This document shows, in pieces, positions 4,418 to 59,693 of a stretch of DNA of 64,000 bases. A program made the position numbers and the translations under genes. How positions within the stretch are numbered: position 1 is the stretch's first letter; the number at the start of each line of letters is the position of its first letter. Origin of the DNA: Marchantia polymorpha subsp. ruderalis (Eukaryota > Streptophyta > Marchantiopsida > Marchantiales > Marchantiaceae); NCBI GenBank assembly GCA_037833965.1, contig AP031357.1:5042001-5106000 (forward strand), in the 5' to 3' direction. The notes beneath the pieces are model-generated. The model saw only the letters and a list, made by a program, of their open reading frames with translations, had not been told where the DNA came from and made no database searches.

Positions 4418-7400
4418 TTCGAGTATTTGATGGTCAGTGACATCTGACTCTCTCTCTCTCGTTGGGCTTGTTTGAGGTTTGTGAGTTTTGTCCGACGCAC
4501 TTTTCTGGAGTAATATGGAGAGAGTCATTCTTCGAGTAGCTGCCGATTTATGCAGTTTTTGCCACCCTTGGAGTTCGAATTAGTCGTTAACTTTATGCTG
4601 ACAAACAATACACCAAAATCTAGAGGTTCTTAGATTTCTTTTGATCTTGCTTCTTGCCCGCTTGGCAAACAAAGATCTTTGGGAAGAAATCAACCGAAGA
4701 CATAAATGTACAAAAGCTTCATACCTTCAACCGTTGGAATCACATTTATCAAGCACTAATGATGCTCCTTCGAACAATGACCAAGCTTGATGTGAAAGTA
4801 TATTCTATATCTTTTTTATGTTGGAAAATTCAGAGGAGAAATATTTAGGTACACTTCTGTCTACAGAATAGTCACATACCTTCAGTTGAAACCAACATGC
4901 CATCTTATACATCTGTCCATGTCATTATTACATATGAACTTTGCCATATTCAAAAACCTAAAATTTTCACATCGAGAATGTTGATTTGTCATATACTGAC
5001 TGATTACATACACTTGTGAAGCATGGTTTGTATGGAACAGTAGATTCTGCAAATTACTTCTTACAGTAAGATCATTTTGGAGAAAAAAACAACTAAGTCT
5101 TAATCTATCCGTTTCTCCTTTCCAAAACGAATTGTTCAAACCAATACAACAACTAGTTTTTCCTGCCGGCCCTAACTCTTTTCCTTCCTTCGTGAAAATA
5201 ATTGTGAAGGGGACTATTCCAATATTTCACCTGTTGATTATATCCGGATATCGATATATGAGGCACATAATTTATCCCTTCAATGACAAGTTTGAGTAGA
5301 TGTTATCGATGAAGATTCAAAAATGTCTTTTCACATCTAATTTTTTACTGAATGGATTCACATGCAAATGAAATCAGAATGTATGTGCACTGTAATTCCT
5401 CACAAACTAGTTCATCTGTTAGCCAATCTGACGGTCATGGCTCTATTTAAATTTCACAATGTATTTATATGATATAAATTGTAACTGAGATATCTACTAG
5501 ATATCTCAGTTACGGTTGGAAGTAGCTTAATTTCGGAGCAGGGAGTATCCGAAATTCCTTCCTCAAATTTTCAAGTTAACTTCTAAGTTATTTCTGCTGT
5601 CCTTCCTCGGTCTCTTGTTTTCTGTGTCAAGGAGTTCCGTTTATTATAAGCAATTGCTGTCCTTTCTTTCGAATTTTTTTATCTGTCTTTTCCCGATTTG
5701 AAACTCTAAGTTATATACTGTTGTCTTGGAGAACGACTTAATCTTGTCGTAGGTTTCCCATAAGGACATAAAACTTTCCATCCTCAAATTGAAAGATCGG
5801 TAAAATGCATCATCGTAAGAGAATGGTTGTGGTCAAAGACCTTACAAAGCGAATCACGCCGTACTCGGACAGACCAGCAGCTTTATTAGGAAAAGTTTAG
5901 GGTGTGGACCCTGAGCGCTTTCAGCAAACGAGTCGAGCGAAATTCCAAGAGGACGGATACGATCATAATCATCCAGCTCCCTCACCAACATCAGCTTGTA
6001 TACATTGTTAATCAGAATATGTCTTGAGATGATTCCAAGTTTATCAAATGCATTAAGAATAGAAATTTATTTGAGATGATTTTTTCTTCATAGTTATGTA
6101 CACTATTTCGAAATCGCTACCTGTATCTACAACATTGAATTTATATCATCCTAATTATCAAGAATACTTTATATTTTATTTGTACTATGGCACATCATTA
6201 AAAAATGAACGCAACAATTTCTTCTTTTGAATTCAAATAGCATGATCATAAAGAAATTTGTACATACCTATTGATTTATTGTATGATTCCACCATATATT
6301 TTGTGAATAATCGTATGTTTATTTATTATAAAGTGATTGAAGCTAGCATATAAGATGAACTATGTAGTAAACTTGTAAAGATGTAATACATAGTAATGTT
6401 TACCATAAAGCTAAACATACACTTACTTTACTTATGAAGATTATAATTAAAAAATTGGACTATATATATATAAATAATTGAGCTAACTACATGAAATTTC
6501 CTTTTTGAATATGTGCAATAGGACTAATTTCAAAACAAAATTATATTTTCTAGGCTGAAACTCGATTTACTCATGCTTGATCAACATGTATAATGGGTTA
6601 AAGAAGGAGTAAATAGTCAGTAAATATTAGTAATGTGAGAAGTGGAGTGGAGCATGCCATCCTCCGTTCATACTCTCATGTATCACAGTGGCCATAGACC
6701 GATAGATGGGTATGCGTAAGAGGAGCTGAAAATAAGTTCCATCATAAATGGAATGCAATTCTTATTTTGAATACTATGACTCTTCAAGAACTGCAAACTG
6801 CTCAAAAAAGACGAAATGAAGATGTCATCATTGTTAAATATTGCAACATTTGTCGCCAAACTGTTCTCTTGGGCCGGAACGAGAAACTTTGCTTCATGCT
6901 TGGGCTTTCTAGGACTTTCTAGATTCCCTAAAAAGAAATTGGACTGTAATGCTTTGGAGGGGTCTCTCATTGGATCTTCCAAGCAGCACATGAATATTAA
7001 ATAGGTCAACAGTTCTTCCCTCCTCCGGCTTGTCTCTTGAACCTTTGTTTCACGCTGTCTGGGTACCATTGATTACGTCTGCCCATTTCTCCTCTTCGGC
7101 TGTTGATTCGTATTTTTTTTGGAGTAATTCATCTTTCTTTCTATTTTTGGGTACTGCTTTCGTGTTTTTTCCCCCCTTTGTCGCTCTTGAGAGATACAAA
7201 ATCTACCAAGTACATTGTTGCTGAGGCCCTCAGATCCGCTCTACATCCATTAATTGAAAAGTCGAATGTGTGGTCTAATTCCGTTCCAATATGATGGTGG
7301 CTGCCATTTTTTGATCGCGCGTATCTACAACCAAGAACTTATTTTTTAGAATAATTCATTCGAGTAAAATAGAGTAGATAAGAATAATCGCTCGGAATAA

Positions 7401-9700
7401 GAATGATCGACCGAATAATTGACAGGAGCGAAGAGACGATCCATTTCACCCACATTCCAGTTGAAAAGATGCAGATGACTGGAAGGGGTATAATATCTCT
7501 AAGGTTCCGATTCCCACCTCTTTGTATTAATTCGTGGTGAGAAAGATGATGCTATGATCAGTCCATAAAGAAAAGATACAATCTCACACATTAAGGTTGT
7601 TTTTGACAAGCATCGAGAACTAGATTTGGATTACAAAGAGAAAATTACATTAGCCTCCCGCTTAAGTACGCAACAGTTTGTGTGTATTTAACTGGTAGTT
7701 GCGTACTTAAAATTGCACTCTCCGAAACGGCTTGAGTTTGCTTCAATGCCAAAGAAGACCAAACCGAAATAATCTCAATGAGTCTCAACGCTAGCCAAAG
7801 CGACTGCTCCAAGTAAGAGGTTCGTGAAAGCGCCATCAGAAAGATTTGGGAGAACCGGAGGCGATTTAGGAAATATGTGCCCTGTTGACGGAATAATCTA
7901 ATGAGAAGCCCTGAAAAAGCGATACAGATCGTTTGAATCATTAGATTAATTTCAGAGTGAGATACGCAGGTTATTACTCAAACCAAACGCACAATTTTCA
8001 CTAGATTTTGATTCATGGCATGTTCAATTGATAAATTTTGAAGGAAATATTTGCGTATTTAAACAGGAGGCAATTCTAAGTGATGCAAGATAACGAAAAG
8101 ACAGGAAGACTAGAGTTGTCGGTAGAGTACTTTTAGCTTATAGAGTATTAGAGTAAGTATAAAGTATTGTAAGTAGAGTATATGTAAATAAAATCGTAAG
8201 TCTTGTGGCCCACACATAACTAAAAGTCTTTTTGATTTTACACTAATTTGATTTTGACAGAGGGCACGGGTTTTGATAATATCGCAAGAAGTGCGAAGAG
8301 GCTAACTACAGTAGCAAAGAGCTTCTACGTGATATGCACTAACAAGAGCCAAACTGCGCAATCTAAAATAGAATTGGTGACCTGGTGCCATTGGAGTTTA
8401 ATCGTGATGAGACATAGTAGTATCCAAAAGAAAAAAATTCTGCGCTTTGTCCATTCTGAACCCCTCTATTTGCTAAGTTAAAATACTTGGACTCTATCAG
8501 ATTATTGTAGGCTGTCATTATAAAACCCTATTAATCAACAACTTTCACCAGACCTCATGTAATCCACATTGATCCAAGACCCACAGTAATAGATTTACAT
8601 CATTGACGGTTATCTGCGTAGGATGATATTGCCTACTACCACTATTTGAGTAACCTTACGTCATGATAGTTCAGATTATCGCATGGTTTTCCATCATGTC
8701 GTAATCAGTCATGGCTAAAGTCAAAATCACTGATTTTACGTACTGGGAGGTTCAACAGATTAGTAGAATGTGTACCGGTGGTTGGATCAGCCTAAATTAA
8801 GCCAAGATCATGCAATTGATTCAAACCATGTCAGTTTTCAGGCAATAAATAATCACGAAAAAGCAAGCGACCTCTTATAAGTTTACACATCGGAGGGAAC
8901 TTTATGGACTTGTGTTGTACCAAAGTTTCCTGTTTATGAAAGATGTCGGCGTTGGATCCGTTAAGGCTCTGAAGTGCCAAACAAGACATAATATTATCAT
9001 TCGCAACACTATTACTTTTTGTTTTCATGCATGAAGTGAGCAAAGGGTCGTAAAAGTTGAGCGTTAGAGGCAGTGTTTGAAGAGAATGCAGTCTCTTCAA
9101 GCATAAGAGGTACACTCACACTCGTGATATTTCTCTTCGATACAGTTGTAAAGAGCGTGGACGTGTACTTCTGTCCAAGTTCACTACATGAAGAGTTTGG
9201 TGTGGGCCAAACATATTTTCATGAGATGGAAACTCACCACCCTACAAAATATTACACTCTTCATGATTCCCAGACGCTAGAATTTAGAAGTAAAGATCCC
9301 TGTACGATGCGATAGGCTGTTTCACTCCTCTCTGCTATCTGAACTCTCGCCTTACTCTGGTTATGTTCATGAGAGTTAAAAACACATAATAATCCTGTAA
9401 AATATTTTTAATTATGAAATGCAATGCACATTCTTTCGATTCGAACCAGCTTGTTCATCCTCATGGATTCTGAATTCAGTTGTACATGTGAAACGTGCTT
9501 GTCATGATACGAGAAAATTTCCTTTTTTCGGGGATACTAATGATTATGTTAAAGTTGTATCACTACAGTATGCGGAGTAATATTTCTTCACCACCTTGAA
9601 GGATCTCTTTATTGATCATTCTTTGTGCAATAACTAACTCTTCATTTTTCCCGGATGCTAGAATGCAGAAGTAACTGGTCATACATGATTCTCCTGGTTT
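4418..9700. other. AT-rich gene desert
   Basis: More than 5 kb of AT-rich sequence in which all open frames are short and none shows a known motif or splice pattern. A perfect 15-bp inverted repeat lies at 5481-5513. The composition and lack of coding suggest old decayed repeats, but I could not assign any element family and found no terminal repeats. Confidence 0.5.
5481..5513. repeat. Perfect inverted repeat, 15-bp arms, 3-nt loop
   Basis: GTAACTGAGATATCT (5481-5495) is followed by ACT and by its exact reverse complement (5499-5513). It lies in AT-rich sequence with no gene nearby. Confidence 0.9.
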
Positions 9701-14812: not shown

Positions 14813-17800
14813 TCAATGCCCGAGTGGTTGGAGAGACTCGATCTCTTTGATAAGCAACTCCTTCTCCTCTTCGAACTGCTCGTCTTCTGTTTGGGTGACA
14901 ACCAAAGCAGCCAATCAATATTGGGTTTTCAAAGAAAAACAAGTTTCACGTGAGAAGGGGATTCAGTTCAATACATTCTCCTTTCTCTAGCAACGAAGGG
15001 TTACCTCAACCAAGACTATCAGTTAAATCACAACTGATTCTACTCCTCCGCATCATCTCATTCGCTCCAGTGGCAAAAACTCGCAATCCTCTACCTAACC
15101 ACGGAAAGAAAAACTCTCGAATTTAAAAAAACCGAACCATAAAAGATTAAATGGAAAGAACGAGCTCAAAACACAGAGCTTACCTTTGTCCAGATGAAAG
15201 TTATCGATAAACCTCAGCAACTTGTCTCGGTTTTTGTACAATATATTTACAATGGCCGGAGTTTTGTTCGGATTAGCGACGAAGACCTGCGGCTCGCACA
15301 GTTCAGTCAAGCATTCGAGATACACCCCACCAACCGGACGAATAAAACACACAACTGTTCTGGCTTCAATAAACCAAGACGATGATTTGGGTCTAGAGTT
15401 GACTTATAAACTTCGGCATCAAAAGCAATACTTCATTCCAGATGAGGACCTTGAAAACATGGAAGGCTGATGACTGGATGTTCTTGCTTGGGTCCTGCAA
15501 TAGGTAAGAGCATTTTTTATCAGCGGACAGAGGATGCTACAGGTTCGTGTTTTTTCCTGTTAATGTGTTGTGAATTATTGAAAGGTCTAGACATTAGCTG
15601 CAATGCATCCAACGCGACATTAATCAAAGACTGCGTGATCGAAAATGTGCTGTTTCAAAATGTGCTAAAAACTTGTTTCGAACCAAAAATATAGAGCTTG
15701 AAGAGTGCTTATTACTAATGTAATAAGCATTACCCTAAACCCTAAACCCTAAACCCTAACTTGGATAAGAGAATACAAAAGGGCAAGGCGAGAATGGATA
15801 TACAGTTCCAGGCTACAATGCACACGATCAAGTAGCAGTCCAGATTTGTTCGTAGGACTCTACTGCATAGACAACAATAGTCGGGACTCCACCTATACAG
15901 GTACTTGTCAACTGCACGGCATTGCCTTTTCATTTCTTTGGTATAGACTGCTGAAGGGACAGAAGCGGGTGACATACCTTGATGAGTGTCATCATGATAC
16001 GCAGATTATGCACTTCTGAGATGTACTGCATCATAATTGGGGCGTTTGCACGCTCGAGGAGAAACTCACCGAGGAGCTACATACAACCGAAAAAAGCGAG
16101 TACTATTAAGTAGAAACTCTTCTCGGCGTAAAAGCTTCATCATACACAATCAACGTTCTCTCTTGACGGAAACAAAGATTATGATCGCAAGCAGGTGCAA
16201 GCCTCACAAAGCAAAGGAGGACTCTCGGGGCACTGCCACTTACTTTCAGAGACTGTCTTCGAGTCACGTAATTGTTCGAACCAAGCAGTCTGTCGTATAA
16301 CCTGAAAAACTGTACGGAGCAAAAACTCATTCGAAACATCCAATCACGACACACATGTTACAATAAGAGCAGCACACTTTATTCTCTTTATAACCATATC
16401 ACCTGGAAGAAGTTAAAAATTAACAGCTGGGCAAATCATTTGGACACTAGCAGGAAAAAATTGTGTTGTTATAGTTACTTTGCGTAGAGAAAAAAGACTG
16501 CCCTCACCTGGACGTAGTGAGTGGTGAGGTATTCACAGACGATCGCCTCATGTCTGGTCAACAACTCCTGCACACAGAATTCTCGATGAAGTGAGATTCA
16601 TTTCATAACAAGACCATTAAAACAAACAAGTCACGAGTTTGCATCTACTCCTCACATAAAGGCTCGAAGTCAAAACTTGCAGAACAGCGTGTGCTCAGAT
16701 TCGTTAGCGGTACAAGACAAATTTCGATCAAGATGTGTGGAAAGGTACTAGCCAGATTACTGGAGAGGGACAGATGGAATTGTACCTTGAAGGTGGAGAA
16801 GGCATCAGATGCGATATCGAAGTTTGGAAGCTCCACGTATTTAAAGAAAAGCTCGAAGCTGGCTGACTCAAGCATGTACCTGCTTGCAAGAAATAAATTA
16901 ACCAACCATCCCCAACTTCATCACGCAAATCAAAGGAACGTGAAGGCAGAATTCCATCGCTACATCATGAACTCAAGTCTTTGCCTGCAGTTTTGAATAT
17001 AAACGAAAGGGAAGTGATCATCTTGCACACGTCTCTAACACAATTGAATCAAATCAGATATAATCAAATCCTGATATTTTGTAGTCGTGTTTAGAGAATG
17101 AACAAAAGCGACTTTCACCTGTGAGGAGTATCTGCATATGAAGGCTTACTTGGCTAGGCTCGGATATCTGGCACATTCTCGTAGCATGTTTCCACAATTG
17201 AGTGCAATCTCTTTCGTTTCATAGCTGTCACATCAAGTTAAGTGCAATATAAAGCCTCGTCCCTTAATGGCAACTGTGACGGAAGACAACTTCGTACCCG
17301 TCAATACGAAAGAAGAAACTTGGTGCGACCCCTTGATATTCAACACATATCAGCGGCATATCTCATAATCAGCGAGAGAACTAAACTACAAGCAAGTACA
17401 AGGGCATCAGGTATTGCACTTGTAGTAAGTCGAAATAACATGCCCGTCAACTGGAGAGAACGTACCTACCATGAGACAAGGAAGTCGAGCAGCTCAGTAT
17501 GCTTCTCTATGAACTCCAAACCACTTTGTCTACCTCCCACGTTCTGTCTCAGCAGCGTGCACCATATATTAACGGAATCTTTTCTCGCCTGCAAAACCCA
17601 GAAACCAAGGTTTCAGTGCTTGGCGCTTGTAAAATAATGACAAAGACCACTGTGAGGATGGATTCGATGTAGACACGATGAGTTCCTCCTGAAGTGCGTA
17701 AATCTCGTTCTGTCACCAGACCTAAAGACCGAGGCCTTCAAGTATCGGTCAGGTCAATGAAACATTTCAGCATGGGTCCAGACATAGGAGTGTAAGCTGC

Positions 17801-21826: not shown

Positions 21827-21830
<4 letters not shown>

Positions 21831-29281: not shown

Positions 29282-29317
29282 GAGGCCCTGCTGCAGCTGC
29301 AGCTGCAGCAGGGCCTC
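29282..29317. repeat. 36-bp perfect palindrome
   Basis: GAGGCCCTGCTGCAGCTG (29282-29299) is followed at once by its exact reverse complement (29300-29317), with no loop. Confidence 0.95.
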
Positions 29318-29829: not shown

Positions 29830-29867
29830 CAACTGCAAGTCTGTTGTAAACAACAGACTTGCAGTTG
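29830..29867. repeat. Perfect inverted repeat, 18-bp arms, 2-nt loop
   Basis: CAACTGCAAGTCTGTTGT (29830-29847), AA, and the exact reverse complement (29850-29867). Confidence 0.95.
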
Positions 29868-31323
29868 TTTACCAGAAAGCCTTGCACTGCTGATTAGTCA
29901 ATTGACCACTGCCTTTTCTTTCTTGCTCGCTTGCTTGCTCGCTTTCTTTCTGTCCGTCTGTCTTCGCCCATTAGCACTCTGTTGGCTACATCTAACTCCA
30001 ACGAAGTCTAGCTGCTGCCCTTTTTGGTTGCTGCGAGATAATGGGACTCTTCGAGCTTCTGGCTGGCACACAGTTTCAGCTTCACTGGCATGGCAGGCAG
30101 GCAGGCACGCAGTCACGCATGGCAAACCTACCAATGCTCGGTTATGAATTAGTGTACGAGTTTCAGCCGGGCAGCACTCACATCGCCAGACTCGATGTGT
30201 CCAACTTTCTTGGGGCTCGATGTCGTTGACTTCACTGACCTTCCCTCCGTCTCGTTCGTCAAGTTGATGTGACCAGTTTCCGCAGCCTTTTCAAAATCCA
30301 GATTCTGCAGCTTTGGTTGCTGGTTGGTTGCCACACCCTCGTCTTCTCTTCTCTTCTCTTCGACTTCACACCCACATCCACTTGATCCGCAGAAGGCGTT
30401 GACTGATTCTCAACTGAGAAGCTTGTGCTCACTCTTCGTAATTCCTTGGAAACAACACACACGCTCGGGTAATAAGCCAAGTGCCCCTCCTGCCTGTGAC
30501 TCGTACTCGGGGGCACTTTCCTCACTCCGTGTCTCCACAACAGACCCTAATGATCCAATCAATCGATCATTCTCTTGTCCATGGTTCTTTCGCGTAATCT
30601 GCTCTGTGAGCAATGGTAAATCTGGACGTAGTGCCTGATTTAAGGAGTAAAGTCAATCTCCGTTCGGACAGAACCTAAGCGGACCTGGCCTTTACAGGAA
30701 GTAAAAGCTTCCGCAATTGTGACGAGGAAGAGTAACGATGAAACCTCGGAGGTCTTATCATCTTCAGTCTGCAGTCGACTGAAGATGATTGTAAGACAGG
30801 AAGCTTATTGTGGCTCTGAGTGTCCATCCGGGGGCGACAGAGGAGAAGACAGGGCAAGGGGAAACGAGAGGATTCGACATCGTCCGGAGGCAGTCTCCTC
30901 GCAGCGTTGGCAAACGTGGACCTGGCAGCTTCTTCCGCCTCTGATCGAAACGAGGTACTACCTCGTCCATCAACAGGTGTCATGTCGGCACATTTTAAAA
31001 CTTAATTCTCAGACTTCTCAGATAGCCCTGGAATTCTTGCGTCCATTGGTCCCCAAGAAGCGCTTGCTGCCTTTACCTCCACTCTCACTCCTTATCACGA
31101 ACCGCAAATCACCATTCCTCATTTATCGATCATCTGCGACGATTGGACATATCAATCAATATTGGACATTTCGATATGGCATCGACGATCGATCCTCATT
31201 TTTCGATCATCTGCATTCCTCACAATCGATCATTTTTCGCATTTTTGGGAAGGAAGCCCCGTAGAGCATCTGTGTGGCCAGCAGACGGCTCGAGATCCTT
31301 TGTTTCCAAATAGCAAAACTAAA

Positions 31324-31349
31324 CTTCACTGTCCAGAAGGACAGTGAAG
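31324..31349. repeat. Perfect inverted repeat, 11-bp arms, 4-nt loop
   Basis: CTTCACTGTCC (31324-31334), AGAA, GGACAGTGAAG (31339-31349). Confidence 0.9.
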
Positions 31350-32648: not shown

Positions 32649-34391
32649 GCATATTTCTTAAGGCGATAAAATTGATATGGTCTTTCTAGTTTTTCGTTAT
32701 GCGTCTGCCACTCTTCCCCGCATCATAAACAAGCAGATCATCCACTGAGTTCGGTACAGAAGAAATCACAGGCCACCCGATTTTTCCGGCGATTGCCTTT
32801 GAACGGGGTAGATCGGACCAGGTCGACTGCAGGCCACATTTAGGCAAAGGATAGACTCGACGATCAGAGTGGCAGTATTTACATCATGATAACGGCAGTT
32901 TGAAAGCTTTGTGTGTCAATCTGAAGGTACTTGACAGGGTTCGGAAAGTAGGATTCTTCCACCGTCATTTCTGCAACTTTCACTGCTTTACAGGAGGAAC
33001 GGGGGTGCCCTCAGCCAGCGATCTTAACGAATACTGACTCATCTTCTGATCAGAAGCTCGTTGATGGAGTGAGTCACTTAAGGGCTGCGATTTGTGGTGG
33101 AAAGTGCAGTGACGCATGGCATTCGTCAAGAAGCGGATTTTCTACCGTGTTTCTCCAATCTCTCGGTGCCAGTCACAGTGCCAATCTTCGCCTTAACTGA
33201 GGTTTTGGGTGCAGGAATTACAAACTTCAGGCGAACAGAGTAGAGGGAAAAGATTCTTGCTGGATAAATCGCTGAGAGGGGCGTGCTTTGCTCTTTCAAA
33301 AATGGAGCAGGTAGATTTATCATCTGGATTTGACGGGCTTCCAAATCTAACGAGAATTGTGAAGTGTGAAACTTACGAGTTTTTGTAGAGTGCAAAGGAG
33401 ATTGTTACGAAGGAGATGATTTTCCACGCCACCCTGGTGGGCGGATTACGCACGAAAGCAAAAGGATAAAGTGGGAAAAGTTGGTCAAGGCATCTTGGGT
33501 CACTAGGCGGTCACGATGTTCAGAATCCAAACCCCAGTCATTTTATTGCTTCGTGTGTGAACAGAATCGGTTGGTGATCAGAGGATTCAGGTTACTCACA
33601 TTCACTGAAGAAAGCAATTTCTGTAAACAGTACTGCAGGTTCCAACGCAAGGTGACAAGATGTGCAAGAAGCACTGTCAGGACCCGAGGGAGGAAAGTGA
33701 ATCTTCATCCCAATGTTGGCCAGCAAATCTGAAGGCCGCGAAACCCTCGGTAGAGCTTCTCCTCATCGACTCAAATGACAAAAAATTGAGTTGCTGACGT
33801 ACCACAACTGTGACAAAAGCACACAATGCGATATACAAGATTGTGCATTCTACGAAATTTTGTACAACAATCTCATCTGCTGCTAAAAGCAGTGAATACT
33901 TTTGCACGCTGACAGAATTAAGAAAACCACCAGCTGACCGCTAGAACTTCAGCCGGACAACCAAGTGGTGGGAAAAACCTGGAGCTACAAAGAATCATGA
34001 ACTGCATAATCGGAAAACAAGAATAGTAGGTTACAAAAGAGAACCTAGGGGAAGGGGAACTTCTAAATTCCTACAACCGCGTTGATGAGAACTGACGAGG
34101 GTCAGGACGACTGGGCGCATGGACAAGATGAAGTTGTCCATGAGCTGGTGTTGTCAGACGATCAGTTCAAATCGACTCGCTTGCCACAGCTATTTTCGAA
34201 AAGGTTCTCTTGAGGTCCGGATCCCCCACAATGGACGACTTCGAGGCGCTTTGTTCGACTGAAGAAAAGATCTGATGCAGTAAAGCGCAGTAGAGGGTGC
34301 TTGTTTCCAGGGGTTCGTGAAGATTGAACATCGCTGTGAACTGAAAGAAGTTGTTGACTGAAGTGAACTAAGGGATTGAAAAGGTCCTATC
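32649..34391. other. Downstream flank of the XB3-like gene
   Basis: The 3' UTR of the XB3-like gene starts at 34391 and runs leftwards. I could not place its end. Remaining frames (33481-33732 plus, 33677-33907 minus) are short and unrecognised. Confidence 0.35.
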
Positions 34392-37300
34392 CTACAACCT
34401 GGTGAGCCAGTCGATGTCGACGATTCTACCTGATCGTCCACCTGATCCGCATCTGCCGCTGATTATTCTGCTACTGAAAAGAGGTCCGCTGAAGGAACCC
34501 TTGCCGCCAGATCCTCCTCTCGAATTGTGTCTCGATCCGCCTGATCTTCTCGACCTCCTGGATCTGGATTTCTCCTTGCTCTCTTGAAGTTTCGTCTTCG
34601 GACGGGCAATGATGAGATGACCGATGTTGCGACGGCAGAACGGACAAGAAGGAGGTGGAGAGTAAGGGATTGCTGGATTGGGCTTACTGTGACAACAGAG
34701 CGAGAGTGTGCAAGTTGCGCACATCTGGTGACCACACTCTTTCACCTCGATAGTACAAAACTGTTCAAAGCAGATGCAACAAACTTCTTGGACTCCCAGA
34801 CCTCCAGTCTGCACACCCCACACGACATCCAGCACACTCTTTGTCAGAACTTCCCAATTTCCACCTGAACCCTCGGACCATCAATCAGACAGATAAAAAA
34901 CTGAGCAAACATAAACTCTTCGCAACACTGAAGCTCGACTTTCAGTCAGCAGATGACGAAAAGAGCCATCAGCTGTAGTTCCAGATCCACCCAGATATGG
35001 CATCAAGCCAAGTAGAAACTCCAGAAAACGTGGCAGCGAATTGTTTTCCAAAAAGCTCGAGAAGAGTGCAACGATCATCCTCACAGCACAAGACTTATCC
35101 ACGAAGCAGTAGACCAGTCCGTCCAGAACCCACGCGTGTAAACATCTCCACTTTGAGTTGTTTGACTGCTGGTGAGTAACTGTCAGATGACAGGACAGGA
35201 TGCACATATTGTACAGCACCTGGATTCGGATCTGTAGATCATGCCTCGACATGACATGAACCGAGACAGAGGGAGTGGGCAAAGTGAGGAGGAGCTGACT
35301 GAGACTAGCAACGGGAAGCCACCATGGTATCTCACCTCAATAGGAACATCGGCTGTGGTGTCCTTGGCGGCTTCTTCAGTCTTGTCTTCCTCTTGATTCC
35401 GAGCAGGAGGAACGAAAGGAGCAGGTACTTCGTCTGCCTCGGGAGCTGACAGGACGGCCGCCAAAGTCCTTCGCTTCGTGTGCCCTTTGGATTTGGTGGA
35501 CTGAGCACGACTGGACCGTGAAGACATCTCGCGATCGCGCTCGTCGTTAGCCTGAGCCAACGCAGCCTCCAACAAAGTTTTGGCTTCGGGCTCGAGCTCG
35601 CTCATGAACTTCCAGGGTGATGGCCAAACCAGTGGCTCGGCTCCATGCGGATTCAATATTGCAGCGCATGCGGTGTTGTTGTACTTCATGGCTATGCCGT
35701 ATGGAGTGTACCTGCGCACCGACGCATGTTCAGCACCGAGCTCTCTCTTCTGCTTCAGAGCAGCTGAGGGAAGACGAAATCGCAACGAGGCAGAAGCATA
35801 AACTGGTGGACTACACCGAAGCGTACACAGAGCACGAGCTGCAAATTTGATTGACTCGCTTACCCTGTGAGATCCCGCTGCGTGCGATCTGCTCCCCACG
35901 CCAAAAGCTCCCGCACGCACTCCAACGATCCTCCACGAGCAGCGCAGTGTATCGGCGTGCTTCCATGTCCAGGCCTGCTCCAGACAGATGGGGGTGCGCA
36001 TGGTATTGCGGCCCTGTTCCATTCAGAACACATGATTTGGCACAAGCATTTCTCTCCCTCTAAATCGACCGATTGGACTGACAACATTTGACAGACTCGC
36101 ATTTTGGCCTCTTCCTCCCCTTCGTCCTCCTCTGGACTGTCGACTTCTATCGTGCACTTCAATCACAGAGTGTGCAAACTTCTCTCTCTGGCCCATTCCC
36201 ATCTGCAAAACCAAGTGACCCTTTGCACCTTGAACGCATTCTATCGACGACTCGAAGTTTGCTGCGGAGCTCGATTCGCTACGCTTGCTCGAGGCCTCAT
36301 CGATCTCCTTCGAAGGAAGGATGGGAAGGCAAACCAATGGAAGGCTCGCAAGTCCTACGAGTCCTGTCCTCGAGGACAATCATCGCCGCTCGACTTGTGC
36401 AGACGAGACTCCATGATTGATCCGGATCGAAGTCTATGACTAGAAAATTGTCGCAATCAGTGACCGGAGTGGCTTCGCGCGCATTGAGAGAAGGGACAGT
36501 GATAGAGAGAGAAAGGGGGACTCACCCATTGCCGGTGGTGGTGGTGGTGGCGGACACGAGAGCTCCGCTGTCGAGCAGAAGGCGCAGGACGCCGGCATGG
36601 CCTTGCCGCGACGCCATGTGCAGAGGGGTGATGCCATAGCCGTCGCGCACATTAACGAACCTCACGAAGCCCCACGAATTCGCCACGGGGCCCTGCGCCG
36701 CAGCGGCCAGAATTCGCCGAACGCACTCGGTGTGACCTCCTCGCGAAGCGTAGTGCAAGCATGTCCTGGCTCGAGTGTAATCGAACGCCAAAACCTGCTC
36801 GACCCAACCAATCGACCATGGAACGAGTCAGTGACATCCATAGCCATTGCACAATCATCATCATCATCAGACATCGAGCACGCCATTCATTGCACCAGCT
36901 AACTGACTTACTCCCATGGGCCTACCACCAAATCGCAATAGTGGGAACGAAGGATTTGGGGGAGCGAGAGATAGAGACGAGAATCGAGTTGAGATTGAGA
37001 CTTACGTTAGCTCCCGCTTCCAGCAGGGGTTCAATGCAAGACCAGCGTCCAGATTTGCATGCCAGCATCAACGGAGTCTGCACAATCAGAATCCTGCCAT
37101 TAACGCCAAGCCATGTCCGCGAAGAAAGAACTGCAGTGCACCAGTCCGCTTAAGACTGGCAACGCTGAGAATGAAGAATGAAGATGGACGACAAGCGCAC
37201 ACATGCCTGCCCGCTCGCCAAGGTAGCGGGCGGGGAGGCGGGAAGAAAGGCAGGCAGGCAGGCAGGCATTGCGCAGCAGGGGAGCTGCTGGGGCTCAATG

Positions 37301-38537
37301 TCACGCACCTGTCCAGAGCTGTTCAAAATGTTCACCTGCGCGCCTCGCTCCAAGAGCACCTGGAGAATCTGCGATCATGACGACAGACAGACAGACGAGT
37401 CACGATTGCACTTCAGTACGAGCGATTGATTCAACCGAACCACTCAATCCCAATCACGCCACAGTCTTGCGCCCGTATTTCTCATCGCATTGCCCGGTGC
37501 TGCCATCGCCATCGCAATCGCCATCGCCGTCCTGCAGGCGTGGTCCGGACGCTAAGGCCTCCCCGCTCACACCCTCGAATGTCCTAATATTTTAAGCCAT
37601 GCAGAATGTCTCGGTCCACGCCTCCAGGTCCTGATTGCTCTTGACGGCAGCTAAAGTCTACGGGATTCGCGTTGGACTTTGTGTACCGCTTACTGTATCG
37701 AGGTGCGCGTAAGGCAAATTGCCGGATGCGCAAGGTACATGTCCGGAGGCGCACTGAATGATTGCGCCACCCCCCAGGGCTTGCACGTCTCCGTGGCACG
37801 AGTGGACAGTCCCGAGGGCAGATCTCGACTTCGACATCGAGCTGAACTACCGAACGACTGACCGACTGACCGACTAACTGACTCACTGACTCACTGTACT
37901 GAGATTGGCGCACAGCCAAAAGTAACTGGATTTCGGATAGCAGATGGCCCCGGACGTGCAAATCGAGCGGCATGAAGCTCGACGATTCGGAGGCCGAATG
38001 TCTCGACGTCCCACTCGTTCGGTGAACAGGAGCACACCGTTCACGACACTGAATCTGAACTGACGTAATCCAGAGACATTCGGGCTCAGTCAGTCCAGCT
38101 CTCGAGTCGCCAAGAATGTCGTGCGTCCGTCCGTCAGTTCGCGCATGCGATCGATGCATCATGTCATCCATCTGAGCAAGCAGCTCTCGAACGAATCGTG
38201 TCGGGGGCCACTGCTCCGAAGAATTCGCAGCTGATGGATGCATGCGTGCGTGCTCTCTCTCTCTCTCTCTCTCTCTCTCAGCTGGCTCGAAGCATTGGTA
38301 GCAGCAACCCGAAGCAGAAGCAAGTGAGTCGAACGACGAGAGAAAGCGTACCTGGAGCTGTCCTTGTTGAGCAGCGACATGAAGAGGCGCCAGACGCTCG
38401 TAGAAGAACCCGGCGTTCAGGAGTTTCGGTTCGTCCCGCAACATCTGCAGCACGTACTCCACATCGCCTTCCCGGATTGCCGAAAACAACTGCTGCCCCG
38501 CAGTATTCCCGCAGCTCACCCTCAGCGCCTGCCCCAT
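34392..38537 (-). CDS. XB3/XBAT31-like ankyrin-repeat RING E3 ubiquitin ligase, complete, 7 coding exons
   Basis: The 496-aa product matches the plant XB3 (XA21-binding protein 3) / XBAT31 type of RING E3 ubiquitin ligase. Coding exons in transcript order are 38537-38352, 37368-37309, 37077-37006, 36794-36526, 35974-35864, 35711-35336 and 34808-34392; they total 1491 nt with consistent phase and GT-AG introns (152-983 bp). Ankyrin repeats cover about residues 48-230 (LAPLHVAAQQGQ, TPLMLACKSGR, TCLHYASRGGH, GITPLHMASRQGH, STPIHCAARGG). The family block YTPYGIAMKY...AEPLVWPSPWKF follows at 234-265. The RING-HC domain is at 368-416, with C368, C371, C383, H385, C388, C391, C413 and C416. The tail is basic and Ser/Gly-rich and ends near GRIVDID. 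The chosen ATG gives the family's MGQ start, although the frame stays open for 101 codons upstream. Rice XB3 is about 450 aa; the excess is mainly in the linker and tail. Substrates in this plant are unknown. Confidence 0.95.
38252..38279. repeat. (CT)n microsatellite
   Basis: About 14 CT units in intron 1 of the XB3-like gene, which read as GA on its sense strand. Confidence 0.9.
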
Positions 38538-39480
38538 CGATCCTTCCCCACCTCTTCGCCTCCTTGCGCCGCCCCCCTCGATCGCCCTTCGCCTTCGCCT
38601 CCGAGTCCCAAAATTTCTCCCCCTCGCGGGCAGACGGCAACGGTCCCCCCGTGTCGAATAGAGACCGTTATCGGCTTCGATACTGGTGTCCCCGAGGCCC
38701 TCTCCGGTAGCGGGCAGCTTTCTAGCCTCGGACCGTTGGATCTGAGCGGACGAAGGAGCTCGGGGGATATGGCAGCCCCTAGGCAGATGCTTCGGTCTAG
38801 ACACTAGAGAAGGGCGATGATGAATGTGCTCTCGAGTCAAAATTTGCTGCAGATGATCGATGATGACGATGTCGCTCGGGGCGGAAAAGGTGCAGCAGCA
38901 ATAGGTGTGTCCCGTAGGCGAAATCTACGTCCTCCTATCTAGCTAGAGGCGGTGGACTAGCACCTTCGAAAATTGAAATCTGAAAGGCGCAAGTCGATGA
39001 TGATGATAATGAGATTGATGAATTCTGTGCAGTCTTTCTTCGGTGGGGCACAAGCCGACAGGTGTCGGCGGGCTCCGCAATTGGCTAAAATTTCCGAGCG
39101 ACGGAGTTGAGAATGGGAAAGTCGATCGCCTCACAATGTGCTCCTTCCTGGTGCCAGGCTTCTGTGGCCAACATCCAAATGAGCTGCAATTCCTCGCGGT
39201 CTCGACGTTGGTTTCAGGCTGCCTCCGACTTTCCGAAGGCGCACGAAGAGCCGAACCGATAGATCGATCGGTTCGAGTCGCGAAGCTCTCCTCCAGCTCG
39301 CTCAGAGTCTCAAAATTTTCCCCGCTCCCGACCAGAACTCCGCAGCAGTCCCGGAAAATAGAACTCGCTCGATTTCGATTGGCGTTCGAGTAGACACCCT
39401 TCTGCACCGCTGCGACAGACGCTCCTCGTCAAAACTCACAAATCTGGTACCGCAGCTCCCTCCATTGCAGCGCAAGGTGT
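38538..39480 (-). promoter_or_regulatory. Leader and promoter-proximal region of the XB3-like gene
   Basis: The 5' UTR must lie just upstream of the ATG at 38537. The sequence is GC-rich, and I see no good TATA box or clear leader intron, so start site and promoter limits cannot be fixed. The frame in phase with the start codon stays open to 38840, but the upstream residues are Arg/Gly-rich and unlike the family. Confidence 0.35.
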
Positions 39481-41900: not shown

Positions 41901-43690
41901 TCTTTTTTGCCATTCGGGACTCACGTATTGCACAGCGAGCCTATTTAATATAATCTAGCCTGACCCTTGACCTCTGGGCTTGTCTGTGCAAGTTTTTATA
42001 CAGCTATGGAAATGTATTATTTAGACCGGGCTTACACGCCCTGGTCTATTTTTTAGACGCGTTCGACATCCTCGTAAGAAACGCCTACGAGCACCGAAAG
42101 ATTTGTGGCTGAGGAGGATCCTGATAACAATGAACTGGTCGATTTCACAAAATATCTCTACAACGTAAAATATATGACAGTTGTTCTCTGTGGTGCTTCT
42201 GTGACTTTCTGGTAAATCAAAATGTGAATTTATGCATTATCATTCCATACTAATCCTACGTATTACTCTACATATAAACTTTGATGAAATATCCTGAGGT
42301 CACAAGGTTTGACAACTAGGGTATTTTGTCTTTTCATCCTACGAAAGTCACGTCCAAATGTTTGTGTACATCCAGCAGTTATGGTAGTCAAGATGACGAT
42401 GATTTTCACATGCTTTTGTCAACAGGAAACCACTGCCGGAGAAATTTGTATATGTAGCGCGCTTTTCCTACTAGACCATAGCTGAGTGCAGGAAGGGATG
42501 CTATGGATATTAACTGTGTGATAAGTAGCTCATATGAGCATATGAGCATATGACAACGATAACCTTTGCCGTCAACTTGTAGAGGTCATCATATCGCGTA
42601 TTGACTTCGTTACATTCTCTCTATAACTTTCGCCCTCTTTCCATCATCAGCACTATGCAGTATAGCTTCGATTGCACGAAACAAATGCACGCTCGATTAA
42701 TATCTTAATTTGATTACTTCTCGTACGACTATCCAGTCAGAACCGCTGGATAATATATAAGTAAAATGATCATGTTTGTCTAAACATATTCGCTATGAAA
42801 AATTTGAACTTCGATCGCAAAAGGAAGGGAGATTGGATCTCAAAATGCATAAAAATTTGTGCTTTATAATTAGTAGATTGTGTCAAATATGATTATCACT
42901 TAATATATTACTTCTCAAGCCTCAGTCACTGAGAAATTAAGAGGCAGTGGATTGAATGTCCAGATGAATTGTTGTATGCGATGCATATCTGCCGAAAAAG
43001 GCAGGCGTCTATTTTTGTAAAGGCTGCTCCTGCGTCTTTGACCGAGCCCCCCAAAGTCCTCTCCTCTGATGCAGATATGTCTTGCCTTCAAGTTGTGAGC
43101 TACATTCCAGGTTTTGGGTATGTGACGGTCATGGAATATCTGTTGGTTTAGCCCCGCTGCACACCTACAAGCACGTCTTAGAATGTTACCACAAGCCTGA
43201 CATTGTTATGTTTCTTCACAAAGCTAGCAATATCGAGGTGAAACAAGTTGCTTCAAATACGACGTTTGATGATTAAAAGTGAGGTGAACTGAAAATTTTC
43301 ATTCGTACTGTGCTCGTACATGTCAAACATTTTCTCCTCAAATTATAATTTTTTATGTTTTGAGCTGCGCTTTACTATATACGAAACATATAAGTTTTTA
43401 CATTTTTACACACGATTACTGATAATATATAACTTTGAGATTTAGGCGCACATCTGTACTTAAACACATCAAAGAGGAGAAGCATAAATTCCCAATATTT
43501 TGATGTCGCATGAAACAGATGAGGACAAACATGAATATTATTGAATAAGATAAAACTTGCTCTCAGCTTGGAGACAAATCGTAAGAGAGAGTCCCAAAAA
43601 TAATCAGTCAAGGTTTCGTCAACTCGGTTTTCGATGTTAATCATGGAAGAATGCCATTGACCACGATTGCCTGCTTTGTTGCTTGTGATA
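41901..43690. other. AT-rich intergenic sequence
   Basis: Composition changes sharply near 41900. Only short frames are present. A near-palindromic TAGACCGGGC...GCCCTGGTCTA lies around 42022-42050. Confidence 0.4.
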
Positions 43691-48006: not shown

Positions 48007-48039
<33 letters not shown>

Positions 48040-48515: not shown

Positions 48516-50300
48516 ATTTAGAATGCGCACAAGTCTCCGTGATCCTCGGAACTGTAGCTAAAGGATAGCGCATCGAGCATGAGGAAAATGACGGAATGAA
48601 GTTGTAATACAAGAATCAGAATAACTACCACAGAGCCATAGAATGGAGAAAGGAGCTGTAGAGATGTCATTAAGGTGGGCCACGATGACAAGCTATTCCT
48701 AATAATGTGGTCATAATGGATCTTTTGGGAAAATGATTGACTCTCACGTTCTGTACGAACGTCATTGCGCATCTGAATTGCTGTGTACATACACGAGTAA
48801 GCCCGAAAGGTATTCCCCACTATCCCAAAAAGTTTCCATTGACATAACATTCCATGTTCTGATCGAAAGCAACTTGCTCGTCCATTGACCATCGAGAATA
48901 TTGGGAAATCTAGAATGAGGATGAAAAGCCAGTTAGTGCACATCTGATAAATAAGAGAAGAATCTTAATCGTCCACTTGAACCCTTTCCTGGGTTTGCTT
49001 TCTTGCTTGTTCAACGGGAAAGTGGAGACTACTTTCAACCTTTCATGGGATGCAACGAATTCACTCATTGGATAGAATTTGGAGGCTTGCTTGAGCTGTC
49101 GAGTAAGTCGTTCATGATTCAGTGCTGGCGAGTCTTCCGGAAGACTTCTCTCGGAGGTGGGAGCGTGTGAAAGCCTAGGGGAGGTCTCGATGTGGAAAGA
49201 GATGCAACGCAAGACTGTCAATGTATGGACGTAGAAAGTGAGTTGGTATGGTGTGGGTGACTGCCTGCTGCAGAGTGGACGGAGCGATGGTGCGCTCTTT
49301 TCATGTACTGTAGTCACTTGGTCTCAGTTACATCTGAATGTAAGGTTCCAGAGTCTCTAGCCTAAAAAATCAATGGGCGAACAAGATTTGCTCACTTTGC
49401 AGGAGTCTGCAACTTCCACTTCTCTCCCTGACAGCTCTTTCCCTGCTTCATAATCGGAGTGGTAGCTGCAAGGAGAAACATTGCACCATGATATGCACAC
49501 ATCATTCCGAGACCAGATGTTTGCTTCGATTTCATATGATCTCGAGTGATGGCAACTTGCCAGTTGACGGCTACAACTTGTCGAGTTCCTCCAAAACTGC
49601 TGGTCGACTATTTCCGACCTCGTGATTTGTGAAAGTCCCCGCGGTCGTACTGGAGAAGTGTGGGACGCCGCGCATGGTATTTGTGAAAATTCGGAATCTA
49701 CTGCTGGCCTTGGGCCGGACGGACCTCCTCGGCTAAAGTTCAGTGGGGCATGCTTCAATGGGAAACGTTACTGCTACCGTAGCTGGGAAGACGGCGATGG
49801 TGTCTGGCATCTGAGTCCCAGCTTGAGAGGTTGACTGGAGACCAGACCAGTCCTCCTGGGGGTGTTGTTGTACATCTGCTCAGCTGTGGATCCAAGTGGA
49901 CCCCCAGCCTGAACCACACGGACCACATCATGGACGACTCGATGGGGTTCGTCCCATTCATTTTGCAATATCACTCGGTGTCTAATCACATCAGCACTGG
50001 AAGGAGCTCATCGGAGTACTGTAGTTTCACTCTCCTTCCTGCCGCAGAATGGCAAGCCCAGTGCGTCTGACACGATCTTCGAGGACATAATGTCTTTCCA
50101 AATCGACAGCAAACCGCTTTACTCAATCGCCCTTCCTTTCCGCAGTAGAGTCTGAGCTCACTCACTGCAAAGGTTGACTGCAGAGTCCAGTGTAGCGATG
50201 ACTGGACTGCAGTACGGGGCGGCATGACCTGCAGACATAAGGCACCGGTTGTCCTGATACATGTGATCCCTGCTCCATTCATGATCCGGTCGTCGAGCAT
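48516..50300. other. Coding-like fragments of unknown origin
   Basis: Several short frames have protein-like composition: minus strand 48910-49317 (end of frame basic, then hydrophobic) and 48518-48943 (141 codons, hydrophobic near the end), plus strand 49622-49834 and 49831-50070 (two overlapping frames, Trp- and Cys-containing). They do not form a consistent exon chain that I can defend. A decayed gene or mobile element is possible. A 16-bp perfect palindrome (AGTCTTCCGGAAGACT) is at 49131-49146. Confidence 0.25.
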
Positions 50301-54780: not shown

Positions 54781-54787
54781 ATAGAAC

Positions 54788-54861
54788 TTACAGGAACTAA
54801 ACTTTAGTTCCTGTAATTCCAGGAATTATTCTTCCCTTTAGTTACTAAAGGGAAGAATAAT
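54788..54861. repeat. Three consecutive perfect inverted repeats
   Basis: First: TTACAGGAACTAA (54788-54800), ACT, reverse complement (54804-54816). Second: AATTCC, A, GGAATT (54815-54827). Third: ATTATTCTTCCCTTTAGT (54825-54842), T, reverse complement (54844-54861). All arms match exactly, and neighbouring palindromes share a few bases. Confidence 0.95.
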
Positions 54862-54875
54862 ATCTAACACATGCA

Positions 54876-55031
54876 ATGTCTTTGGCAGGGAAGTTGTATC
54901 AAATTCATAAGCTTTTAGGTGTTAAAGATATGTCTGGTGAGGATAGATCTCTTGAGGTCGGCGATGCACACAATCTCAGATTTCACGACATTTCTCAGGA
55001 ATTCCATCTGGTGAGTGATTCATTTAGCTGA
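54876..55031 (+). CDS. Possible small ORF or exon, 51 aa, unknown
   Basis: From ATG 54876 the frame encodes a charged, balanced peptide (MSLAGKLYQIHKLLGVKD..., then ...FHDISQEFHL). A good splice donor (CATCTG|GTGAGT) sits at 55011, and an acceptor-like CTTTGGCAG precedes GGAAG at 54888, so this may be an internal exon of about 122 nt rather than a small gene. No partner exon or family is recognised. Confidence 0.15.
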   Translation: MSLAGKLYQIHKLLGVKDMSGEDRSLEVGDAHNLRFHDISQEFHLVSDSFS

Positions 55032-56150: not shown

Positions 56151-56509
56151 AACGAGAGTTTCCCGTTCAACGACTACCGCCGCCACGGGTCCCGTGGATG
56201 AAGTAGATCGGGTAAACGAAGGGTCGGAGGAAGTAAGTTACTCTTTTTCCAGATGAAACGTTGACGGGCACGAGCGTCCACGACTGCGGCTGTTGGATGG
56301 CGGATGCAGTGGCGGTCGCGGTCGCGGTCGACGACTGAGTTGGCGTGGTCTGTACATCGTCCGCACGGAAGTTGGTTCACGTTAGCTGTCACTCCGCCTA
56401 CAACATCTCGCGTGTTTATGAGGAGAGTGGTCGTTGACACGGGTTAGAAAACCCGACCCACGCCAGGTCTTCACCTCCGTGCATACCGGTCAGTTGTACG
56501 ACCCGGTCG
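56151..56509. other. Small GC-rich islet
   Basis: A GC- and CpG-rich segment at the edge of AT-rich sequence, with an 88-codon minus-strand frame (56174-56440) rich in Arg and Asp and no known motif. Confidence 0.3.
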
Positions 56510-56950
56510 TATACCGGACGGTGATGCTCAACATGTTGTACAATGGTGAACACCAAGTTATCTAGCCAAAAGATGGAAATGACCCATTAATACTCCATAT
56601 ATGAGATCAGATTATATTTCACTATCATCACCAACAAAACAAATTTTACTCAATCCTAAGATATCATGACTATTTTCTTCATAGTTTTATTTCATTAAAA
56701 AACTATACATATAACAAGATAACTACAGCATACACCAGACAGTGATGCACAACATGTCATCAGTTTAAGAAACCAGTAAATGTAGAAAAAAGATGGATTA
56801 CCCAAAAGTACTGTATGGATGATACTCGGTTAAAATATGGTTAGATCCATGTATATTAAAGAAACATATCTTTTCGTAGTAAACATTAAGATATTTTAAC
56901 TATAATATTTACGATAGTATTCGAGTCAAACATTGGAGAAATGAGAAATA
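56510..56950. repeat. Diverged direct duplication, unit about 220 bp
   Basis: The sequences from about 56510 and about 56731 align in the same orientation: GACGGTGATGCTCAACATGT against GACAGTGATGCACAACATGT, then AAAAGATGGAAATGACCCA against AAAAGATGGATTACCCAAA. The similarity becomes hard to follow by eye farther right, so the end is approximate. Confidence 0.55.
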
Positions 56951-58250
56951 TAAACTTTGTGCATAATATGATACAGTGTACTTGGAAACTTTGGTTGTAG
57001 TTAAAGACGATTGCAAAACATTCTCAATTGTTTGGCCTAAATATAGAAGCTTGCAACCGGAATTTGGTATGTAGACTTAGAATGAAGTAGGCCTTCGTAG
57101 ATACCAAGGAAAAGTTCACTCTAACCCAAGTCAACTGGAAGCGAGTTATCTTTCTCATGTGCACCAACACACACCACATGAATCTTGTCGAACTACGGAC
57201 AAGTTGTGTGGATCTACGCCGTATCTATAAACTGCCATACTCCTATATTAATGAGGTTCATATGTTTTGACAAATATGCATATGGGTACATGAATGATTC
57301 ATGTACCCATATGTAGATTTTTCATTCGATTCATGATCAATCAAATGAAAAATCTACATGAGAGTGCGAAGTATTTCACCATGGTTGAGACAAGATACGG
57401 TAGTACCCACTCTTGCTAGACCCCAAACTAAAATATTATCTGGAATGACACTAAGAATGATATACAATATTAATAATCTTAATTTTTTTTCTTCATCTGT
57501 CGTACTTCCGAATTCAAATAGATTTAGTACGCCCTGTTTCACTTAATAAAAGCTTGTCAATGATGTAGTTTTGTGTGTGTATATATATATATAATTAGTC
57601 TAAACATATTTCTTCCATTTGCAAGATTTTCATCCCATGCATGGAGCTGACCGGTTTCAAATCTCAAATCTTTCATTAACTAGGTAGATGAAACGTGTTA
57701 TTCATTCAAAATTTACATTTTCCAAGAAAAGTGGAATTCCTTTACGATGAACTTTATAAGATTTTCACTCAAGATTAATAATATAAAAAAAATCTGGAGA
57801 CTCATAATTCTAATACCATTAATATCAAAAAAATAAATGATTGAATTTCTGTATAAGTATGGAAGTGGAGAAAAAATAATCAAATGTCTTTAATGACGGA
57901 AAATTCAGTAAAGATTAGCACAGCACGGACATTTTCCATAAAATCTTCAAAAAAAAAACGAGCTTACCAAGTTGTATTCACAAAAGCTAATGTATTTCCC
58001 ACAAATTTAGCCTTACGTCAAAACCGCTTCAAATGTGTAGCCAGAACTTAGAACCCCACCCTAAACTCATCCTATTCTAACGGTAATCTTGTTTGAAATA
58101 TGTTTGTTGAAAGGAGAAGTATGATCTAGCTTGATATATCACGAAGAATTGTACCTCATCGATTCTCGATATTATTGAAGAGATTTAAAGTTTCCACGAT
58201 AAAATAACTTTAGTTTCGTCAGTCAATTCACTCGAAGAAACATGAATTGC
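56951..58250. other. AT-rich gene desert
   Basis: Only short frames. It includes the back-to-back inverted repeats at 57279-57359. Confidence 0.45.
57279..57359. repeat. Two back-to-back perfect inverted repeats
   Basis: First: CATATGGGTACATGAA (57279-57294), TGA, reverse complement (57298-57313). Second: ATGTAGATTTTTCATT (57311-57326), a 17-nt loop with a 4-bp inner stem, reverse complement (57344-57359). The right arm of the first overlaps the left arm of the second by 3 bases. Confidence 0.95.
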
Positions 58251-59430
58251 TATGTCAACGTTCGCACTAGCAGTTCAAAGTCAACGAAAGCGACAGAAGC
58301 AAATGCTGCTTAACGATATGGGTCCCTGAAAGATCCAGAACTTGCAACCTCAAAATGGAGGCTTCCAGTCATCTGCTGCATGCATGCAGTGAGATCTGCC
58401 ATGGATGTGTTAGATCTGGGGCATAAAAGAAGCAGATCTTTCCTCGACATCGAGGCAAATACAAGATACAAGATTTGTTTGATGTTCTCTTACGTGAGGG
58501 CCCTTATTTACATATCTTTACACTGTATCATGCTTCGAGCATGCGGAACTTCTCAACATACTGAGACTTTGAATGACATATTCAGATTTGGTAGGTGCAT
58601 GAAAAGGAGTGTCATGAGTAATCTACACCATGATCATCGATATTTCAGGAGACGACCAAGATTTCCTCAATCGGTTCGTACCAAGGTGGCATATCGATTC
58701 TTGACGTGTATTTGTTTGCTCAACTGTCAACTACTTGGCAGCACGTACAAGTGAAACAATTGCACAGTGTATTAAAACCTTTTGCTCACATGTCCAGTAC
58801 ACTTGGAGTGAACTTTTCCCCCTTTCCAAGAGTAGCCAGTGCCCTTTGGTCATAACAAGCCTCTAAAGAAACAGAAGGCGAGTCATGTTCTCAATGTCGT
58901 GAAGTGAATGTCATCTATTTTGTCTACATCTCACTTCTTCCGATTCCAGATTTAAAATGTATATATGAAGAAATGTGACATAAGAGCACACCCTTAAAAT
59001 AGAACAGTTTTGTTTAATTTATATTCTTAATGTGGACAACCATGTACTGCACGTAGACAATATATAATTATGTGAAGGAAAAATTTCTCAAGAAGAACCC
59101 TCTCCAGTTCATGAACCCAATATTTCTCTTGCTCATAGATCTATCACTGCTTGAGTTTTATTCATAATTTATTCTGTTTTGAAACTCATGGATTGAATAA
59201 TTCAAAGTTCCACTTTTCGTTCACATGCTGAGACTTTTCGGACGATGGAGCCCATCAATATAATGTGATGACGGCACAGTGATAGGTGTTCTCTGGGCAG
59301 TCTAGCCATATGAAGTCAGCAAGCTTGTAGTACGCGAACTCCTCATTACTGCTGCACATTCTTGCATAAGAACGTGATCGAAAAGGTCCTGTTCTCTCCG
59401 CTTCTCTCGATCCAACCTTTCCACTCTTCC
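58251..59430. other. Intergenic, no gene recognised
   Basis: The longest frame (58380-58754 plus, 124 codons) has no recognisable motif. The rest is AT-rich. Confidence 0.35.
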
Positions 59431-59435
59431 ATGTA

Positions 59436-59693
59436 TCAGATATTGACCACTTCAGAATCAGGAGGATGGAAGTCCACGTACGAAAACTCACGTCGGATCA
59501 TGCCGCCGGCTGTCTCCCAATGTCGCGAGTAGTATGTCACTCGCAGAAACCTCTGCGAGTGACATGAATAAGGATGGAACACCTTTCCATCTCCAGCGAC
59601 AGTAGGTCCCATTCCGATTTGAAGTGCAAGAAAATGTGTCTTCTCTCCAGGCCTCAATGGAGTTGCGTACGACTGACTGGCTTCACCAACCAA
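59436..59693 (-). other. Coding-like frame, 85 codons, unknown family
   Basis: The minus-strand frame has a well-mixed composition (GEKTHFLALQIGMGPTVAGD in the first half, FSYVDFHPPDSEVVNI at its end), unlike the low-complexity frames nearby. A perfect 14-bp inverted repeat (59534-59565) lies inside it. Whether it is an exon, a relic or a chance frame cannot be told from sequence alone. Confidence 0.2.
59534..59565. repeat. Perfect inverted repeat, 14-bp arms, 4-nt loop
   Basis: ATGTCACTCGCAGA (59534-59547), AACC, TCTGCGAGTGACAT (59552-59565). Confidence 0.95.

Follow-up and report, generated by a model that had tools for sequence, protein, structure and literature searches.

What process leaves perfect, nearly loopless inverted repeats scattered along a plant chromosome? 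The question is raised by a 64,000-nucleotide (nt) stretch of Marchantia polymorpha subsp. ruderalis DNA (assembly GCA_037833965.1, contig AP031357.1, positions 5,042,001 to 5,106,000), hereafter the window, in which positions are counted from the first letter. An earlier note on this DNA had listed such palindromes and ascribed them to template switching or snap-back synthesis during replication or break repair. We find that two pairs of adjoining palindromes, at 54788-54861 and 57279-57359, are, judging from their sequence, very probably excision footprints of transposons of the hAT superfamily, and that the single palindrome at 29830 is possibly another. Footprints of this type are already known; what is new are these sites, with their long P-nucleotide arms of 14-24 nt.

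A surplus of nearly loopless palindromes

Long palindromes were defined as perfect inverted repeats with arms of at least 12 bp and loops of at most 5 nt, and the window (45.7% G+C) was compared with 30 dinucleotide shuffles of itself, with local 1-kb shuffles and by means of a mismatch-tolerant score. Seven long palindromes were found against 0.03 in the dinucleotide shuffles, all with arms of 14-18 bp, so that a threshold of at least 14 bp also gives seven, against 0; with arms of at least 9 bp the count is 13 against 1.6. The local shuffles and the mismatch-tolerant score reproduced the surplus, and the claim that chance predicts far fewer such repeats is borne out. Among shorter arms of 6-8 bp, the surplus is weaker with loops of 0-2 nt (81 versus 52 expected) and absent with loops of 3-8 nt (89 versus 91). 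Every palindrome in the earlier list was recovered within 1 base of its given position and with an arm in the reported range of 9-18 bp, apart from 49131-49146 (arm 8, loop 0).

Using a definition of arms of at least 10 bp and spacers of at most 8 nt, inverted repeats occupy 5.05 bp/kb of the window. By the same definition, a survey of 118,019 genomes gives a mean of 4.22 bp/kb for Plantae and finds in Streptophyta the largest enrichment over shuffles among eukaryotes (PMC13155455). The density is thus ordinary for plants, and the proposal of a lineage with unusually high activity is not supported. The window resembles other plants in density and not in kind, since the eukaryotic repeats of the survey are mostly AT-rich (PMC13155455) and the arms here range from 28 to 72% G+C.

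One nucleotide is the commonest loop among arms of at least 14 bp (four of the seven), and among the seven long palindromes only 59534 has a loop longer than 2 nt, the other six having 0-2 nt. This bears on fold-back (snap-back) priming, a transposon-free route in which polymerase theta or delta starts synthesis at a folded broken end and end joining follows. Yeast breaks do yield inverted duplications of 5-34 bp (PMC11724301), and polymerase theta extends stem-loops in vitro (PMC11292364). However, a single strand can fold back only around a loop of about 3 nt or more, and loops of that size occur here only at 59534 among the long palindromes and at the shorter ones 15706, 31324 and 30757; a 6-nt loop is favoured for Drosophila inverted templated insertions, as quoted in PMC11292364; and fold-back priming offers no reason for the 8-bp duplication described below. 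As a general explanation we consider it quite unlikely. The snap-back part of the earlier proposal therefore sits poorly with the predominance of loops of 0-2 nt, while it may still hold for 29282, 59534, 31324 and 5481.

Two double palindromes with an exact 8-bp flank overlap

Three of the seven long palindromes, together with an imperfect one, make up two double palindromes. To read them, we took the left arm of the left palindrome and the right arm of the right palindrome as the original flanks, read each axis base as the complement of a lost flank base, and then measured the length over which the two flanks overlap. The palindromes and their one-nucleotide axes are directly visible in the DNA and so, once the axis bases are complemented, is an overlap of exactly 8 bp at both sites, with no other overlap length of 2 bp or more.

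The first double palindrome consists of 54788-54816 (arm 14, loop 1) and 54825-54861 (arm 18, loop 1), which adjoin each other and have ACTAAA in common at their axes. The left flank (54788-54801, within the left side 54788-54802) ends in AACTAAA, seven of the eight base pairs of the inferred target duplication AACTAAAG, and is followed by the tip base at 54802 (C, the complement of a lost G) and by a 14-nt inverted copy of the flank, a perfect arm, at 54803-54816. A filler, TTCCAGGA, occupies the joint at 54817-54824. Beyond it lie an 18-nt inverted copy of the right flank, again a perfect arm (54825-54842), and the right side (54843-54861), made up of the tip base at 54843 (T, the complement of a lost A), ACTAAAG at 54844-54850 and the remaining right flank. 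Complementing the axis bases gives ...CAGGAACTAAAG for the left flank and AACTAAAGGGAAG... for the right, which overlap by exactly 8 bp, AACTAAAG; random local flanks give such an overlap with a chance of 2.6e-5. The filler is also the core of a third small loop-1 palindrome, TAATTCC A GGAATTA (axis 54821, arm 7).

At the second site, the palindrome 57279-57313 (arm 17, loop 1) is followed by an imperfect and slightly decayed one, 57311-57359, which was absent from the earlier list. The left side (57279-57296) holds a flank ending in CATGAAT (57289-57295) and the tip base at 57296 (G, the complement of a lost C); a 17-nt inverted copy of the flank follows at 57297-57313. The inverted copy of the right flank (57311-57334) is 24 nt long, has two mismatches and retains CATGAATC. 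The right side (57335-57359) begins with the tip base at 57335 (G, the complement of a lost C) and ATCAATC, which would be the target duplication with one later substitution, and continues into the right flank. The last three bases of the left inverted copy, ATG at 57311-57313, belong to both inverted copies and form a directly visible microhomology at the joint. Here the left flank is ...GGTACATGAATC, and the inverted copy of the right flank, which is better preserved than the native one, gives CATGAATCGAATG... for that flank; the overlap is again exactly eight bases, CATGAATC, on which the left flank, the left inverted copy and the right inverted copy agree. The chance of this among random local flanks is 2.7e-5, and the option of using the inverted copy costs a factor of about 2 in probability.

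The two mismatches between the arms of the right half at 57.3 kb also speak to assembly or library fold-back artefacts. Most of the long palindromes are free of mismatches, which is what a fresh artefact would show, but this half has aged as real sequence does, mildly imperfect palindromes are likewise slightly in excess by the mismatch-tolerant score, and an artefact would not put complemented tips and an 8-bp duplication at the axes; such an origin is extremely improbable. A reading restricted to perfect palindromes, whether through artefact or constant correction, is not needed given that imperfect excess.

Taken jointly, the two sites would arise by chance with a probability of about 7e-10, and all four of their axes are single unpaired bases that fit the complement of the lost base. 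When the whole window was scanned for two-axis arrangements with an 8-bp overlap, five sites were found against 0.4 in shuffles; the site at 54.8 kb is the only one with two long arms, and the rest comprise a CTGCAG repeat at 29.3 kb and the one-sided palindrome at 29830. Overlaps of 2-7 bp were also above shuffles and include overlapping registers of the same palindromes as well as simple repeats; among the listed hits with overlaps of 6-7 bp in the window, no convincing new site was found, and none of the window's short palindromes (arms 6-8) has a convincing 8-bp partner.

These overlaps speak against replication-fork template switching between strands, by inverted copying or imperfect-palindrome correction, as the origin of all the palindromes. 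Perfect inverted repeats and hairpins are a known product of template switching (PMC8604942; PMC8794818), switching between strands tolerates loops of 0-2 nt, and the process explains 5481, 29282 and 59534, the palindromes left over, reasonably well. It is a poor account of the double palindromes, as it does not predict adjacent palindromes with an exact 8-bp overlap and complemented one-base axes, twice over, and we hold it unlikely to have made the whole set. The earlier idea that break repair copied a nearby strand comes close, in that break repair is involved, but its specific claims do not hold at the best-resolved sites, 54.8 and 57.3 kb, whose 8-bp overlaps with complemented one-nucleotide tips are expected from hAT excision and not from template switching.

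A further alternative, that small palindromic mobile elements of one family inserted intact, would suit the similar size of the palindromes (29-38 bp). Against it, the arms are unrelated between loci, no repeat family was found in the window, and no target duplications were seen flanking the palindromes by inspection, so this origin has a negligible probability. The earlier view that the arms belong to no single family thus holds, with the qualification that those at 54788 and 54825 share the axis motif noted above.

Probable excision of a hAT element and repair of the site

The features of the double palindromes are those of hAT transposition. The Hermes hAT transposase makes 8-bp target duplications (PMC10368747), hAT hairpins form on the flanking DNA (PMC6900584), and Kat1 cuts mostly 1 nt outside the terminal repeat (PMC4763223). 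Because of a cut 1 nt outside the terminal repeat, the hairpin tip carries the complement of the lost base. In Ac/Ds footprints, the P-nucleotide insertions are palindromes whose centre is the complement of the transposon-adjacent base, with arms of up to 20 nt in yeast and of at least 3 nt in 20-30% of Arabidopsis footprints (PMC5873905; see also PMC1978519).

We infer the identity of the element, the order of the steps and the nuclease as follows. A hAT element, a relative of maize Activator, would have lain between two copies of an 8-bp target duplication. The transposase would nick each flank one base beyond the element's end. Attack of the freed 3' end on the opposite strand would turn each chromosome end into a hairpin with a single unpaired base at its tip, complementary to the base that was lost. 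Host cleavage of the 5'-ending strand, 14-24 nt away from the tip, would then open the hairpins and leave 3' tails that are long and self-complementary (P nucleotides), and joining of these tails through short microhomology or filler would give two adjacent palindromes. As all four tips are complements, the P tracts should lie on 3' tails, and hence the hairpins should have been cut on the 5'-ending strand. The cuts would have fallen 14 and 18 nt from the tip at 54.8 kb, and 17 and 24 nt from it at 57.3 kb.

An MRE11-like enzyme is our guess for the nuclease; MRE11 complexes cleave the 5' strand at a distance of some 15-20 nt from blocked ends. The joints, namely the ATG microhomology, the 8-nt filler and, at the palindrome 29830, GTTG (29863-29867), fit end joining. 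Ac-like elements prefer short hops, a preference that the 2.5-kb spacing of the two sites would suit.

Several points weigh against hAT excision. The firm sites number only two, and at 57.3 kb the native right copy is CATCAATC, which matches at seven of eight positions, the exact match requiring the inverted copy. The 8-bp filler at 54817-54824 is not accounted for by this course of events. At 14-24 nt, the P tracts fall at the upper end of the reported lengths or exceed it. Within the window, no hAT element or pair of terminal inverted repeats with an 8-bp duplication rose above the null, and no hAT domain was found in the ten open reading frames scanned; a hAT element nearby would lend support but is not a requirement. 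Ordinary short hAT footprints in the window numbered 19 against 17 in a transversion control; this lack of an excess counts because most footprints should be short. Resident elements with terminal inverted repeats and duplications of 3, 5, 8, 9 or 10 bp were also sought, and their counts were at null level.

The other palindromes

The palindrome 29830-29867 (arm 18, loop 2) may be a one-sided footprint (29830-29870). Its left flank (29830-29847) is followed by a two-base tip, AA, and then by a P tract of 18 nt (29850-29867). GTTG would form the junction with a right copy, (A)GTTGTTT at 29863-29870, which overlaps the palindrome end. The loop AA would imply a flank ending in TGTTGTTT as the duplication. 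The match is weak, because four of its seven matched bases are the shared microhomology, and random flanks reproduce it about 5% of the time (P about 0.05); the palindrome is compatible with a hAT footprint, but weakly so, and we rate such an origin as possible to probable.

At 5481-5513 (arm 16, loop 1), 29282-29317 (arm 18, loop 0) and 59534-59565 (arm 14, loop 4), no 8-bp partner was found, the best matching at five of seven bases in each case. As the 8-bp rule fails there, we do not class them as hAT footprints, and they may have other causes. The loop of 5481-5513 does suit a hairpin tip, and 29282-29317 is partly composed of CTGCAG repeats. Fold-back priming or template switching is the more likely origin of 59534-59565, and either process may account for 29282, 31324 and 5481 as well. 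One base before 5481-5513 lies a small AT-rich palindrome, 5463-5479 (arm 8, loop 1). The pair was considered as a third double footprint and rejected, its flanks having no overlap.

Palindromes with loops of 4-7 nt, at 15706-15729 (arm 10, loop 4), 31324-31349 (arm 11, loop 4), 59534 and 30757, are a better fit to fold-back priming during break repair, so that at least two processes have probably been at work. The list is completed by 1260-1279 (arm 9, loop 2). A short palindrome at 42528-42553 derives from a tandem self-palindromic unit, CATATGAG, and arises by repetition, unlike the others.

Neighbouring features

The palindrome 15706-15729 ends two bases before a plant-type interstitial telomere repeat, (ACCCTAA)4 in perfect copies, at 15732-15759. 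Together (15706-15759) they suggest a repaired break that captured telomeric sequence.

On the minus strand, 34395-34880 is a RING exon of plant XB3/XBAT31 ubiquitin ligases (PF24921, E 9e-22). Together with the telomere repeat and the lack of a long bacterial-type gene array, this exon makes nuclear DNA of a land plant the most likely origin of the window. Upstream of the RING exon, the minus-strand open reading frame 37587-38924 has no Pfam match and, by eye, looks like the gene's N-terminal ankyrin exon. Just 3' of the RING exon, on the same strand, lies a 110-nt imperfect hairpin (34074-34183; 74 of 115 aligned positions self-complementary, four gaps), possibly an untranslated-region or small-RNA hairpin. 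Two local tandem duplications lie in pyrimidine-rich DNA, at 2758-3029 (about 67 bp in 3.6 copies, 80%) and at 4244-4413 (85 bp in 2 copies, 86%).

Wider meaning

The scars of cut-and-paste transposon excision are usually unrecognisable once the element is lost. Long two-axis palindromes whose flanks overlap by 8 bp can be identified without knowing the element, and past hAT jumps, with the mode of hairpin opening, could therefore be counted in any plant assembly. The step from two sites to the palindrome surplus of plants is a proposal only: a good part of the land-plant surplus of short, nearly loopless perfect inverted repeats might conceivably be a fossil record of hAT excision, an idea that we regard as tentative and rather doubtful. 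If it were true, arm lengths would reveal the point at which host nucleases cut hairpin ends open, which at the present sites would be on the 5'-ending strand at 14-24 nt from the tip, and hAT scars would give a concrete cause for part of a surplus usually ascribed to replication errors or to function.

Comparison with known systems

V(D)J coding joints made by RAG resemble the double palindromes in their hairpin-ended flanks, off-centre opening and joining into palindromic tracts. They differ in that RAG cuts flush with its signal, so that no base is lost at the tip, and in having short P tracts. RAG/Transib elements duplicate 5 bp of target, versus 8 bp here.

Short-range template-switch mutations and quasi-palindrome correction (PMC8604942, PMC7954356, PMC8794818) also produce short perfect inverted repeats with small spacers, but lack the 8-bp flank overlap, the complemented-tip rule and the obligatory pairing of palindromes. 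The fold-back insertions described at double-strand breaks in yeast (PMC11724301) likewise contain inverted copies, mostly of 5-34 bp and closed by end joining; their priming, however, starts at inverted microhomologies, with a spacer of 41 nt in the case reported, and not at a one-base hairpin tip.

A close likeness is offered by the Ac/Ds (hAT) footprints of yeast, Candida and Arabidopsis, as presented in PMC5873905, which quotes Lazarow 2012 and Huefner 2011, and in PMC1978519. There, too, palindromes centred on the complement of the transposon-bordering base stand on one or both sides of the joint, beside the 8-bp target duplication, with microhomology at the joints. The maximal P tracts reported are 3 nt in Candida and 20 nt in yeast, whereas here they measure 14-24 nt on both sides of both firm sites. 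A further difference is that the sites in Marchantia are natural ones, recognised from their scars alone and not through the element.

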